Shown here: one piece after another, positions 46,414 through 56,601 of the stretch
How positions within the stretch are numbered: position 1 is the first letter of the stretch
How the letters are laid out: every line of letters begins with the position of its first letter
Assembly (NCBI RefSeq): GCF_900188335.1
Contig: NZ_FZOY01000001.1
Span: forward strand, 372,001 to 436,000
Origin: Tropicimonas sediminicola
GTDB taxonomy: Bacteria; Pseudomonadota; Alphaproteobacteria; Rhodobacterales; Rhodobacteraceae
Reading direction: 5' to 3'
Length of the DNA: 64,000 bases
Notes under the pieces: generated by a model
What the model saw: the letters and a program-made list of their open reading frames with translations, nothing else
What the model was told of the DNA's origin: nothing
The model's database searches: none
Program-made: the position numbers and the translations under genes

Positions 46414-46622
46414 GCACTCGTCCTCGCGGCCCGCACCAGGTTCGTCCCAGGACCGCCAGCCGCGCGCCGCCCCGCCGTGTGGGCCCGTGCCGGGCCGCAT
46501 GCCCACCGCTATGCCATTCCCGCACCTCCGGCAATCCCGATCCGTGCCGATCCCTGTTTCCCTTTTCCCCGCGGCGTTCTATCGTGCTTGACCGCTGCAC
46601 GGATTCTCCTCATATGCCGCCC

Positions 46623-48425
<1,803 letters not shown>

Positions 48426-50868: not shown

Positions 50869-50882
50869 ATGACATGGGTCAA
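50869..50882. promoter_or_regulatory. Degenerate FNR-like box between CBS and GYD genes
   Basis: ATGACATGGGTCAA matches nine of ten defined positions of TTGAC-N4-GTCAA. Its distance to both start codons is larger than for the three good sites at 53-56 kb, and no -10 sits at class II spacing on either side. Confidence 0.35.
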
Positions 50883-53336: not shown

Positions 53337-53350
53337 TTGACCTGAATCAA
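53337..53350 (+). promoter_or_regulatory. FNR-type box before the 58-residue membrane protein gene
   Basis: TTGACCTGAATCAA fits TTGAY-N4-RTCAA. Its centre lies 41.5 bases before a start placed at 53385, and the -10 slot at 53373-53378 reads TATCGC. The box is 75 bases from the start codon. Confidence 0.7.
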
Positions 53351-53424
53351 GGACGATAAGGCGTATCACAAATATCGCTTTTACGCAGCACGTCCCCGTT
53401 CACAGGCACAGGCCCGGAGGTCCC

Positions 53425-53601
53425 ATGTTTCGTCTTGCCATGCTTCTCTTCGTCGTGATCGGCGCCTCGATGGCCGGCATCTTCATCGTTGCGGCCCTCG
53501 TCGCCGGGCTCGACACCCAAACACCGATCCTCGTGGCCGCCGCCGCGGGCTTTTTCGCCGCGGTGCCGGTCAGCTACCTCGTTGCGCGGCAGCTGGTCTG
53601 A
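53425..53601 (+). CDS. 58-residue membrane protein (paralogue 1)
   Basis: A short gene: MFRLAMLLFVVIGASMAGIF then IVAALVAGLDTQTPILVAAA, ending AGFFAAVPVSYLVARQLV. Two hydrophobic helices are joined by a short polar turn. The product at 55947-56129 has the same plan (M-x-R-L, G-x-x-IVA, a central IL, and P-x-x-x-L-x-A near the end). Similar tiny proteins in Rhodobacterales have been labelled CTP synthetase in error. An FNR-type box precedes it; a GGAGGTCCC ribosome site is present. Confidence 0.8.
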   Translation: MFRLAMLLFVVIGASMAGIFIVAALVAGLDTQTPILVAAAAGFFAAVPVSYLVARQLV

Positions 53602-53605
53602 GGGC

Positions 53606-53740
53606 CTAGAGCTTCTGCTGGACCGAGCGGGCACTGTCGGAGACGAAATCGCCGGCTTTGGACAGGTCTTGTCCCGCCCCGTCGACGGTGGCGCAGGCCC
53701 CGAGCGTCAGAAGCAGCAGCGGCAGGATCAGGCGTTTCAT
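53606..53740 (-). CDS. Entericidin-type small lipoprotein
   Basis: A 44-residue lipoprotein precursor: MKRLILPLLLLTLGACATVD with the lipobox LGAC, then DGAGQDLSKAGDFVSDSARS. This matches the entericidin A/B family, small envelope lipoproteins. It is convergent with the 58-residue membrane protein gene, only four bases between their stops. I start at the internal Met because the longer frame has no lipobox spacing. Confidence 0.85.
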   Translation of the reverse strand: MKRLILPLLLLTLGACATVDGAGQDLSKAGDFVSDSARSVQQKL

Positions 53741-53806
53741 GCGAGGTCTCCGGTCTTGGTCTCGGCGGCGCAATTTATGGCCGCTTGCGAACCAGCGCAA
53801 CCGTTC

Positions 53807-54106
53807 TCAAAGGCTCCGCAGCCCCGGCCCGGGCGGACGTTCGCCGGCCTCCTGCGCGGCGGCGAAACGGCAGGCGATGTCGTCCTGTTCCCGCCGAAGG
53901 CTGGCCAGCGAATGCCCGTCGAACCGTTCGACCATCTCCAGGTCGCGGATCGAGACGACGGCGCAATAGGGCCGGCCATGCCGGGTCAGCAGCAGCCGCG
54001 ACGGGATGTTCACCACCTGCGGCAGCAGCATCGCGATGTTGGTCCGGAAGTTGGTGACCGAGATCATCTCGGTCCGGATGTAGGGGGCGGGGATCATGCG
54101 GGTCAT
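53807..54106 (-). CDS. Orphan Phd/YefM-like antitoxin protein
   Basis: A 99-residue protein. The part starting MISVTNFRTNIAMLLPQVVN and continuing RLLLTRHGRPYCAVVSIRDL matches the Phd/YefM DNA-binding and dimer fold; the remainder (MVERFDGHSLASLRREQDDI) is helical, as in antitoxin C-termini. No toxin gene is adjacent. Translation may start at the Met before ISVTNF (54067) rather than at 54106. An array of repeated motifs is found 72-184 bases upstream and could be its operator. Confidence 0.72.
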   Translation of the reverse strand: MTRMIPAPYIRTEMISVTNFRTNIAMLLPQVVNIPSRLLLTRHGRPYCAVVSIRDLEMVERFDGHSLASLRREQDDIACRFAAAQEAGERPPGPGLRSL

Positions 54107-54177
54107 GGCGCCATTCCACCAGCATCCGGTTAACGCGCCGAAAGCGCGGCGTGCGGTGGGTGTTGCGCCGATTTCCG

Positions 54178-54290
54178 GTCGTTCGCGGCGGTCGTTTCGG
54201 TCGTTTCCCGCGATTTCGTGCCGGGAGGGCAGGGGCCGCAGCGGAAATGACCGGAAGGCGCTGGCAAACGACCGCGGGTTTGGTCGTTTC
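54178..54290. repeat. Array of GGTCGTTTC motifs
   Basis: GGTCGTTC at 54178-54185, GGTCGTTTC at 54190-54198, 54199-54207 (tandem) and 54282-54290, and inverted copies at 54266-54273 (AAACGACC) and 54244-54252 (GAAATGACC). Six copies in 113 bases, within the non-coding space upstream of the antitoxin-like gene. A repressor operator array is the simplest reading. Confidence 0.65.
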
Positions 54291-54326
54291 GCGGCCCGGA
54301 TTGTGCGTTTCGACCGGTTCCCGGGC

Positions 54327-54701
54327 TCAGACGCGGCCGGTCCAGACCAGCCAGGTGATGAAGGCCGCGGCGATCAGCAACAGGTTGAAGGCAAGCGGCG
54401 CCACCACCCCCAGGATCCACCCGATCCGCCGGTCGCGCGGGTCGATCGCCTCGAGGTGCCGCCGCAGGTTGGCGCTCGCCTCGCTCACCCGCGCGCTGTC
54501 GATCTGCCGCCGAAGCTTCGGGTTGTCGTAGAGTTTCTCCATGTCCACCAAGTACTTGGCGTCCTTCCGGAGCGCCCTTGGCAACAGCCCGCCGGCCCGC
54601 CGGAGTTTCACCTCCAGCCGGTCCGCGCCCCGCACGCCCAGCTTCTCCCGCATCAGCAGGGCAAGAGCGGCATTGGTTTCCGGCAGCGAGTTCTCCATCA
54701 T
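54327..54701 (-). CDS. Coiled-coil protein with C-terminal membrane helix
   Basis: A 124-residue protein. Residues 1-90 are charged and helical (REKLGVRGADRLEVKLRRAG, MEKLYDNPKLRRQIDSARVS). One hydrophobic helix (GWILGVVAPLAFNLLLIAAA) near the end anchors it in the membrane. No family recognised. Two adjacent ATGs make the exact start uncertain by one codon. The next gene on the other strand is a hydrolase. Confidence 0.68.
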   Translation of the reverse strand: MMENSLPETNAALALLMREKLGVRGADRLEVKLRRAGGLLPRALRKDAKYLVDMEKLYDNPKLRRQIDSARVSEASANLRRHLEAIDPRDRRIGWILGVVAPLAFNLLLIAAAFITWLVWTGRV

Positions 54702-54783
54702 GGCGCTTTCTACCCCGTTGCCCACCCGCCGGAAACAGGGAATCAACAACAGGCCCAACCATCAGGATTCGTTCGGAAAAACC

Positions 54784-55545
54784 ATGCTGACCACCTACCG
54801 CCACGGCCCCGAGGAGGGCCTGCCGCTGCTCATCGTCCACGGCCTGTTCGGCTCCGCCCGCAACTGGGGCGTCGTCGCCAAACGGCTCAGCGTCGACCGG
54901 CCCGTGCTGACGGTGGACATGCGCAACCACGGCGACAGCTTCCGTGCCGAGGCCAACGGCTATCGCGATATGGCGGATGATCTCGCGCAGGTCATTGAAA
55001 AGAATGGAGGAATGGTCGACATCGTCGGGCATTCCATGGGCGGCAAATCGGCGATGATGCTGGCGCTCACCCGCCCGGACCTGCTCCGCCGCCTGGTCGT
55101 CGCCGACATCGCCCCCGTTGCCTACAGCCACACCCAGCTCCACCTTGTCGAAGCCATGCAGGAACTCGACCTCGATGGCCTGACCCGCCGCAGCGAGGCC
55201 GACCGCGACCTCCAGCGCATCGTCCCCGACAGCCAGACCCGCGCCTTCCTGCTGCAGTCGCTCGACCTCAAGTCCACCCCGCCGCGCTGGAAGCTCAACC
55301 TCGACGTGCTTGCCCAGGAGATGGACAAGATCCTCGGCTGGCCCGCTCCCGACGGCCGCTTCGACGGACCCACCCTGTTCCTCTCGGGCGGCGCCTCCGA
55401 CTACGTTCTTCCGGAATACAGATCTGATATCAAAAGGCTTTTCCCACAGGCACGCTTCGCCAAGATCCCCGGTGCCGGCCACTGGCTACACGCCGAAAAG
55501 CCCCGCGAGTTCGAAGCCACGATCGCCGCCTTCCTCGCCGGGTGA
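54784..55545 (+). CDS. Alpha/beta hydrolase (YbfF/esterase type)
   Basis: A 253-residue hydrolase. The oxyanion region is LLIVHGLFGSARNWGVVAKR, the strand-turn is VDMRNHGDS, the nucleophile elbow is VDIVGHSMGGKSAMMLAL, and the catalytic histidine is in KIPGAGHWLHAEKP. It is like the YbfF family of short-chain acyl esterases. Single gene; an FNR-type box lies immediately after its stop. Confidence 0.9.
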   Translation: MLTTYRHGPEEGLPLLIVHGLFGSARNWGVVAKRLSVDRPVLTVDMRNHGDSFRAEANGYRDMADDLAQVIEKNGGMVDIVGHSMGGKSAMMLALTRPDLLRRLVVADIAPVAYSHTQLHLVEAMQELDLDGLTRRSEADRDLQRIVPDSQTRAFLLQSLDLKSTPPRWKLNLDVLAQEMDKILGWPAPDGRFDGPTLFLSGGASDYVLPEYRSDIKRLFPQARFAKIPGAGHWLHAEKPREFEATIAAFLAG

Positions 55546-55549
55546 CCGC

Positions 55550-55563
55550 TTGATCGGAATCAA
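55550..55563 (+). promoter_or_regulatory. FNR-type box, class II promoter of the 91-residue protein gene
   Basis: TTGATCGGAATCAA is a perfect consensus box. With its centre 41.5 bases before the start, the -10 slot falls exactly on TAGAAA at 55586-55591, preceded by TGC (an extended -10). The leader to the ATG at 55627 would be about 29 bases. Strongest regulatory site in the window. Confidence 0.85.
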
Positions 55564-55626
55564 TGACGCAGCGGAAACTGCGTGCTAGAAAGGTCTCAGG
55601 TGGGTCAGCCGAAAGGGGAGGATAGG

Positions 55627-55902
55627 ATGATCACACTCGACGACATCGAGGATATGAACTGCCTGACGCGGGCGGAGATCGCCGCGCTAGCCGAGCATGA
55701 GCACATCGGGGAATTCGATGCCGCCATGCTGGCGGAGTACCTCATGCATCTGCCCAAGGGGCCGCAGAAGGTACACCAGATGATCTGCGATGACATGCGT
55801 GTCGCCATGCATCGCGACGACGTGAGTCATGCCAAGGAACTTTTCCGCACGCTGCAGCATTTCATCAAGGTTCATCCCGAGGCCGCGCGCGGATCCGCAT
55901 GA
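55627..55902 (+). CDS. Small acidic helical protein behind an FNR box
   Basis: A 91-residue soluble protein: MITLDDIEDMNCLTRAEIAA, LAEHEHIGEFDAAMLAEYLM, then QKVHQMICDDMRVAMHRDDV and helices to the end. No family recognised; the many histidines with Asp/Glu might bind a metal. GGGGAGGATAGG gives a good ribosome site, which selects the ATG at 55627. Expression under low oxygen is predicted from the upstream box. Confidence 0.75.
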   Translation: MITLDDIEDMNCLTRAEIAALAEHEHIGEFDAAMLAEYLMHLPKGPQKVHQMICDDMRVAMHRDDVSHAKELFRTLQHFIKVHPEAARGSA

Positions 55903-55946
55903 CCCACCAGATCAGGTTGTTTTCCAATACCCCGCTCGCGGGCGAG

Positions 55947-56129
55947 TCATCCCTCGCCCAGTTTCTTCGCAATCAGCCACGCCAAAGGGAAGCCGAGCAC
56001 AATCCCGGCCAGCACGCAGGCCAGGATCGCCACGCCCGACACAAAGCCCATCACCAGCACCGCCACGATCCCGGTGCCCATGATGACGGTGGAGGTGATC
56101 GCGTGAAGCAACAGCGTCAGGCGGAGCAT
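55947..56129 (-). CDS. 60-residue membrane protein (paralogue 2)
   Basis: MLRLTLLLHAITSTVIMGTG, then IVAVLVMGFVSGVAILACVL and AGIVLGFPLAWLIAKKLGEG. Two hydrophobic helices with the same M-x-R-L, IVA-x-LV, IL and P-x-x-x-L-x-A pattern as the 58-residue protein at 53425-53601. The start is chosen by that match; an upstream in-frame Met is possible. An FNR-type box lies 64-77 bases before the start on the minus strand. Confidence 0.8.
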   Translation of the reverse strand: MLRLTLLLHAITSTVIMGTGIVAVLVMGFVSGVAILACVLAGIVLGFPLAWLIAKKLGEG

Positions 56130-56192
56130 GAGAGGTCCTTTCGCACAGGGGGCGCACGCGGTTCCGGATAGTCGTGGAACCGCTGGCATTCC

Positions 56193-56206
56193 TTGATACC
56201 GATCAA
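56193..56206 (-). promoter_or_regulatory. FNR-type box before the 60-residue membrane protein gene
   Basis: TTGATACCGATCAA is a perfect consensus box. Read on the minus strand, a class II start falls at 56158 and the -10 slot at 56165-56170 reads TATCCG. The box is also 135 bases before the 86-residue protein gene on the plus strand, with no fitting -10 in that direction. Confidence 0.75.
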
Positions 56207-56340: not shown

Positions 56341-56601
56341 ATGACACTCAACGCGATCGCGCATCAGGCGCTGGAAGAGATCAAGGCGATCGAGGGCACG
56401 GGCGTTACCGAAGGCCACGAAGCCGAGATCCTGGCCGCCATCGACAAGGCCATGCACGCGGCCATGGAGGTCTGCTGCAAGGAGAACGCCGCCGTGGTCG
56501 AACAGCACCTGACCCATGCCACGGGCGTCGCCGAACAGATCAACGAGGAGACGGATCGGCGCCGGACCCTGCTGGTCGCAAACCTGTCCGCCCTGCGCTG
56601 A
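56341..56601 (+). CDS. Small helical protein, unknown
   Basis: An 86-residue soluble protein predicted to be nearly all helix: MTLNAIAHQALEEIKAIEG, GHEAEILAAIDKAMHAAME, VCCKENAAVVEQHLTHATGV and EETDRRRTLLVANLSALR. A CC pair is present. A GGAGGAGCG ribosome site precedes the ATG. No family recognised. Confidence 0.7.
   Translation: MTLNAIAHQALEEIKAIEGTGVTEGHEAEILAAIDKAMHAAMEVCCKENAAVVEQHLTHATGVAEQINEETDRRRTLLVANLSALR

Follow-up and report, generated by a model that had tools for sequence, protein, structure and literature searches.

Two-helix membrane microproteins behind FnrL-type boxes in Rhodobacteraceae, a family often found beside cytochrome b561

Some bacterial respiratory enzymes are made together with tiny membrane proteins such as CydX, CcoQ and CcoM, which have a single helix and are linked to oxidase operons. 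Another relevant system is the superoxide oxidase CybB, which is kin to the prokaryotic cytochromes b561. It is a four-helix membrane protein (PMC11869295). In Rhodobacter sphaeroides, the FnrL site TTGATgcggATCAA at 2,566,094, with an FnrL peak in chromatin immunoprecipitation on arrays (ChIP-chip) and a sigma-70 peak, has been reported as activated and assigned to RSP0820 (PMC2908626). The same promoter is listed among the sites of CrpK (13-fold, a value we take to be that of CrpK) and of PrrA, the operon being given as RSP_0820-RSP_6134 (PMC4263372). In the passages covered here, the R. sphaeroides studies of the RSP_0820 promoter discuss only the cytochrome b561 and do not mention a microprotein. 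Here we analyse a stretch of 64,000 nucleotides from Tropicimonas sediminicola (Rhodobacteraceae; contig NZ_FZOY01000001.1, positions 372,001 to 436,000), referred to below as the window, which carries two genes, P1 and P2, for membrane microproteins, each preceded by a box of the FNR type. Like CydX, CcoQ and CcoM, the two proteins are tiny, but no Pfam or NCBIfam model claims their family. The gene linked to many family members likewise encodes a PF01292 protein, as is the case for CybB; the microproteins themselves differ from cytochrome b561 in having two predicted helices and no conserved histidine.

Both genes are intact open reading frames (ORFs), located where an earlier, sequence-only reading of the window had placed them: P1 at 53425..53601 on the plus strand (58 codons) and P2 at 55947..56129 on the minus strand (60 codons, start at 56129; a longer version with an earlier start is also possible in this frame). 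The common plan proposed for the two proteins (MxRL, IVAxLV, IL, PxxxLxA) is found in both, and on the basis of sequence similarity P1 and P2 are paralogues (34% identity, E 0.0013 in a search of one genome). P1 is preceded by the exact box TTGACCTGAATCAA (53337..53350, plus strand), which is kept ahead of its orthologues, and P2 by the exact box TTGATCGGTATCAA on the minus strand (56193..56206). The box centres lie 81.5 and 70.5 bp before the respective ATG, in agreement with the 70-81 bases claimed earlier. At class II FNR spacing, the -10 slot reads TATCGC for P1 (53373..53378, plus strand) and TATCCG for P2 (56165..56170, minus strand), and the TATC start predicted for both promoters therefore holds. 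When the boxes are taken in the opposite orientation, the slot contains ATGCCT and GCCCGG, respectively, neither of which is -10-like. The exact pattern TTGAYNNNNRTCAA (TTGAY-N4-RTCAA) occurs three times in the window, always inside one 2.9-kb stretch; with one mismatch allowed, there are seven boxes against 1.95 expected, and the genome as a whole (5.17 Mb) has 27 exact boxes compared with 2 for a reversed control pattern. This bears out the view that the same box and -10 element at both genes are unlikely to have arisen by chance. Only two boxed genes had been counted, however. Both are real, but the third exact box, TTGATCGGAATCAA at 55550..55563 (plus strand), had been missed together with the 91-residue ORF behind it, p91 (55627..55902, plus strand), which starts 77 bp after the beginning of the box and has TAGAAA in its class II -10 slot (55586..55591, plus strand). 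In other words, each of the three exact boxes in the window precedes a small gene. Orthologues of both P1 and P2, again boxed, are present in the Tropicimonas genome used for comparison and in the same-genus genome G007, which shows that the duplication predates the genus.

The box is conserved well beyond this genus. At E<=1e-3, a profile built from 34 members (A1) matches 207 of the 394 genomes sampled from the window's taxonomic family; since the genome searches use a first-look filter, absences should be considered soft. Boxes were counted for 112 members (E<1e-17) drawn from the fetched loci (123 loci, best-scoring matches first) and not from all 207 carriers. The eight weaker members of the total 120 (E above 1e-17) were left out of this count; several of them are tandem copies or belong to the 'B' relatives, a group defined by length and tail whose proteins are longer, mostly about 84 residues. 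A box starting 67-90 bp before the ATG is present in 110 of the 112 members, and it is exact in 36 cases, has one mismatch in 65 and two mismatches in 9. By comparison, a box with at most two mismatches is found in about 3% of upstream regions shuffled as single bases, and ahead of 31 of the 534 long control ORFs of the same loci. The two misses are the member in L023, which has no box, and the second tandem copy in L073, whose box is at -48; a member outside the count (at 4262 in L109) has its box at -74. None of the 10 B relatives has a box with up to two mismatches in the same interval. Runs of three to four family copies, in which boxed short (A) and boxless long (B) genes are mixed, were observed in L109, L191, L192 and L197. 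When upstream regions are aligned on the box, the clearest signal beyond the box and its edge is T at +29.5 (50%) and A at +30.5 (74%) from the centre. These positions are the ones that bases -12 and -11 take in a class II promoter, and we therefore regard this peak, to which the slot of P1 also corresponds, as the class II -10 element. In named plasmid records of Paracoccus pantotrophus, P. denitrificans and Pseudorhodobacter turbinis, the box is found between -70 and -68 and is exact in two cases, with a single mismatch in the third, so that conservation upstream of orthologues is seen both in the counted members and in these three records. The family matches in the plasmid records carried no annotation, and two further plasmid searches gave no matches.

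Several observations identify FnrL as the probable regulator. An FNR protein (FnrL) with a cluster of cysteines near its N-terminus is encoded in the window's genome, and the fnrL gene has a box of its own, shared with a divergent hemN-like gene. The window genes thus combine an upstream palindrome, class II spacing and FnrL in the same genome, as expected of the FnrL regulon. Other exact boxes in the genome are located at cbb3 oxidase (ccoN)/uspA-like, ccoG-like, cydA-like and P-type ATPase genes (names from reading translations), and this boxed gene set resembles the FnrL regulon of R. sphaeroides and Rhodobacter capsulatus (PMC2908626, PMC4634722). Across the family's range, FnrL is matched at E<=1e-40, a threshold that admits a few borderline proteins, in 204 of the 207 carriers, and 44 of the 47 genomes without such a match also lack the microprotein family. 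The converse is loose, as FnrL without a detected family gene is found in 143 genomes. The three FnrL-less carriers are G094, which has a boxless B gene only, G098, which is 84% complete, and G390. The R. capsulatus FnrL motif derived from ChIP is (T/C/A)TGA-N6-TCAA (PMC4634722); the family box variants CTGA and ATGA fit it, whereas the GTGA variant is outside the motif.

Experimental data can be connected with the family through the genome G051. Of ten published FnrL sites of R. sphaeroides 2.4.1 that were checked, nine recur in this genome with all 14 bases identical, displaced by 5-117 bp from where they were published, and the remaining one, ATGATgtcgATCAA, is 1.3 kb off its published position. 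Since published sites are recovered at matching positions, we take G051 to be R. sphaeroides 2.4.1. The site at 2,566,094 lies 83 bp before the ATG of a 58-residue family member, and the cytochrome b561 gene starts 29 bp past the stop codon of the latter. The first ORF after the bound and activating site of the RSP_0820 promoter is therefore a microprotein gene, and at least one family member very probably belongs to an experimentally FnrL-activated unit. RSP_6134 may be this microprotein. In R. capsulatus, the hypothetical proteins RCC00424 and RCC00435 have FnrL ChIP peaks with boxes of the family type (PMC4634722), and RCC00424 is numbered near RCC00426, the listed counterpart of RSP0820; that these two are family members is our guess. 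Dshi_1454 of D. shibae is a further candidate. As a separate observation, published FnrL sites near 403,983, 792,528 and 2,193,494 (L201, L202 and L203 in G051) have no assigned target and no family match.

Taken together, box conservation, co-occurrence with FnrL and the bound, activated site in R. sphaeroides support the earlier proposal of oxygen control through an FNR-type regulator, and we consider it highly probable that FnrL regulates the family. The accompanying claim that the proteins are undescribed needs to be divided. It stands for the protein, which we did not find described in the passages of the literature covered (including PMC5398030, PMC4634722, PMC2908626, PMC4263372 and PMC5359404), and titles and abstract openings of literature on small proteins with FNR/FnrL or cytochrome b561 likewise held no description of the family. 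It does not stand for the promoter, since that of R. sphaeroides had already been reported as belonging to the gene that follows.

The 110 members with a box have lengths of 57-64 residues. Two hydrophobic peaks are seen in 109 of them, a positive N-terminus in 102, a neutral or negative loop in 106 and a positive C-terminus in 88, a pattern that agrees with a hairpin whose two ends face the cytoplasm. AlphaFold places the helices of P2 at residues 2-26 and 32-58; with an alignment of six sequences, the best of five models has a mean predicted local distance difference test score (pLDDT) of 88.5 and a predicted template modelling score (pTM) of 0.64, the mean pLDDT of the others ranging from 83.1 to 71.3. 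That the family forms a membrane hairpin is almost certain. The ratio of nonsynonymous to synonymous substitution rates (dN/dS) is 0.08-0.29 in five ortholog pairs (about 0.08 for P1 versus its Tropicimonas orthologue), indicating purifying selection, and a ribosome-binding-like motif precedes 105 of the 110 members. Neither Cys (present in 9/110) nor His (at position 9 in 23/110) is conserved.

Searches of Pfam, NCBIfam and PDB sequences with the family, and of PHROGs with P1, P2 and p91, returned no usable relative. Pfam DUF4229 was considered and rejected, as P1 scores 14.3 bits, below the curated cut-off of 27, and P2 is unlisted; DUF4229 matches at E<=0.1 occur in 17 of 34 members, the best at 1.7e-4. 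Membership in an NCBIfam family was likewise rejected (among 34 members, the lowest E was 0.0039, reached by a single protein; the bit score was compared with the cut-off for the first member). Short proteins of this kind may be labelled 'CTP synthetase' in public records, a term that did not occur in the 20 papers listed for it. In a class-wide sample of 289 genomes, strong matches (E<=2.3e-18) are found solely in the window's own taxonomic family (4 genomes), and there are three weak matches outside it. The best of these (L183 in G688, a genome of another alphaproteobacterial family; E 7e-7) is a protein resembling a hairpin, preceded at -78 by an FNR-like box with one mismatch, and it may be a distant homologue. 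An order-wide sample is uninformative about sister families, since all listed rows come from the window's family.

The only redox gene that we noticed recurring immediately beside the family is that of a PF01292 cytochrome b561. With the b561 profile A3, the matches listed place such a gene no more than 1.5 kb from a family gene in 37 genomes, on the same strand in all 37, following the family gene in 23 and preceding it in 14. These cases were counted irrespective of the box of each family gene, and the A3 alignment, which consists of 12 copies from b561 genes near the family, favours that group. One b561 gene, that of G110, is interrupted by an in-frame stop. When 19 linked b561 proteins are placed on a tree, gene order has changed at least five times by parsimony (support values are moderate, about 0.9 for the mixed pairs), and adjacency thus seems to outlive rearrangement. 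Being nearly always behind an FnrL site and often beside a cytochrome b561, the family probably belongs to the low-oxygen electron-transport kit.

It is therefore our best explanation, to which we assign a probability of roughly 55%, that P1, P2 and their relatives are FnrL-activated two-helix microproteins acting as accessories of the low-oxygen electron-transport membrane. The promoter anatomy, in which box and -10 element are spaced as in class II FNR promoters, is directly visible. If oxygen becomes low, FnrL would bind the box near -41.5 and recruit RNA polymerase, and a protein of 57-64 residues would then be made. It would insert as a helical hairpin with both ends cytoplasmic and the short neutral or acidic loop periplasmic, and might pack against a low-oxygen electron-transport partner, most likely the quinone-linked cytochrome b561, stabilising or tuning it. 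In genomes without the linked b561 group, such as that of the window, a related b-type cytochrome or another redox complex would be the target. A role as subunit or regulator of a respiratory complex, which the sequence-only reading had raised, is something we infer; the linkage points to a membrane redox partner without proving one. On present evidence, we regard an accessory partnership with some redox complex as an even bet.

A number of observations weigh against this explanation. The window's genome has four PF01292 proteins, and none matches the linked b561 group at E<=1e-35, which has lowered the idea of an obligate cytochrome b561 subunit. The group is found in only 93 of the 207 carriers (odds ratio 2.4; the Fisher p-values ignore phylogeny) and in 48 genomes without the family. 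At the 6 loci where b561 precedes the family gene, no box was found ahead of b561 itself, and one paper lists the control of b561 by FnrL as unique to R. sphaeroides and not shared by R. capsulatus RCC00426. For these reasons, the claim that the partner is specifically cytochrome b561 is held tentatively, at about one in three. Furthermore, 61 of the 98 b561 places typed in carriers, the only genomes in which they were typed, are not beside a family gene (among the matches listed). No significant match came from a structure search with the hairpin model (best E 1.5); some of the matches, all at E>=1.5, are two-helix subunits of photosystem I and complex I, which are not taken as evidence. Finally, the literature searched held neither co-purification nor mutant nor expression results on the microprotein itself.

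The strongest competitor, although in our opinion unlikely, is a general low-oxygen membrane or envelope microprotein that has no fixed partner and acts in lipid packing, protein quality control or local curvature, with the b561 linkage reflecting co-regulation in a conserved neighbourhood. It would account for the 114 of 207 carriers that lack the linked b561 group and for the window's genome, which lacks it too, and it agrees with the absence of a conserved Cys or His. Nonetheless, b561 on the same strand in every adjacent case, in both orders and through repeated order changes, exceeds what a passive neighbourhood would be expected to produce. It is less likely that the microprotein serves a terminal oxidase (cbb3 or bd) co-induced by FnrL, either as one of its small subunits or as an assembly factor. 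CydX, CcoQ and CcoM are the precedents, exact boxes are found at the ccoN/uspA-like, ccoG-like and cydA-like genes of the same genome, and a copper-chaperone-like gene (named from its translation) is a neighbour at 10 of 108 loci, but no cco or cyd gene was recognised among the recurrent neighbours listed. Still more doubtful is the possibility that the promoters answer mainly to another Crp/Fnr regulator, CrpK- or Dnr-like, reading the same motif. R. sphaeroides CrpK does bind the site and shares binding determinants with FnrL (PMC4263372); however, both FnrL binding and activation are reported at that very site, and it is FnrL with which the family co-occurs. For a box driving a small RNA, with the ORFs incidental, we found no support; this reading, which would imply a short transcription unit, is very improbable given the dN/dS values, the profile conserved across genera and the ribosome-binding-like motifs. 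Chance matches, favoured by nothing except the shortness of the motif, are already refuted by the shuffled regions and control ORFs.

The neighbourhood of the family is itself partly conserved. The most constant neighbour is an alpha/beta hydrolase (PF00561; 54784..55545, plus strand, convergent with P2), present at 58 of 108 loci, and of the two microprotein genes it is P2 that adjoins it in the convergent arrangement of this neighbourhood. The gene at 46479..48425 (plus strand), which we take to be lepA (elongation factor 4), is an upstream marker found at 29 of the 108 loci, with 28 copies upstream. Other recurrent neighbours are a 125-residue membrane protein (34 loci) and glyA (19 loci), both named from reading translations. 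An ORF for an entericidin-like small lipoprotein (PF08085; 53606-53740, minus strand) adjoins P1, and similar ORFs are present at 8 of 108 family loci. An 86-residue ORF at 56341-56601 (plus strand) is divergent from P2. It is preceded by an exact box at a distance of 148 bp in the window and of 157 bp in Tropicimonas; in the three further relatives found, this box is missing or weak. A box-like ATGACATGGGTCAA, which fits the R. capsulatus FnrL motif, is located at 50869-50882, flanked by genes for a CBS-domain protein on the minus strand and a GYD-domain protein on the plus strand.

The third boxed gene of the window, p91, represents a second family with FNR boxes. Its relatives are found in 19 of 149 genomes; a box with at most two mismatches lies at -66 to -89 in 17 of the 19 and within 150 bp in all 19, and by the listed coordinates at least nine are within 1.3 kb of a microprotein gene. 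Thus, p91 may belong to the same module as the microproteins. It is tempting to speculate that we are dealing with an unrecognised core module of the FnrL regulon, in which often duplicated two-helix microproteins would serve as a small subunit or gate of a quinone-linked, superoxide-oxidase-like b561 and p91 would be a soluble third member, the module having stayed hidden in published ChIP data as only the cytochrome gene was discussed. We consider this extended version rather improbable.

Maps of the FnrL regulon by ChIP exist for more than one species, and yet one of its most constant members, a protein of about 60 residues, has no family model and was apparently overlooked behind the cytochrome gene. 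In bacteria that are already in laboratory use, the family offers a direct way to study the role of small membrane proteins during the shift to low oxygen.

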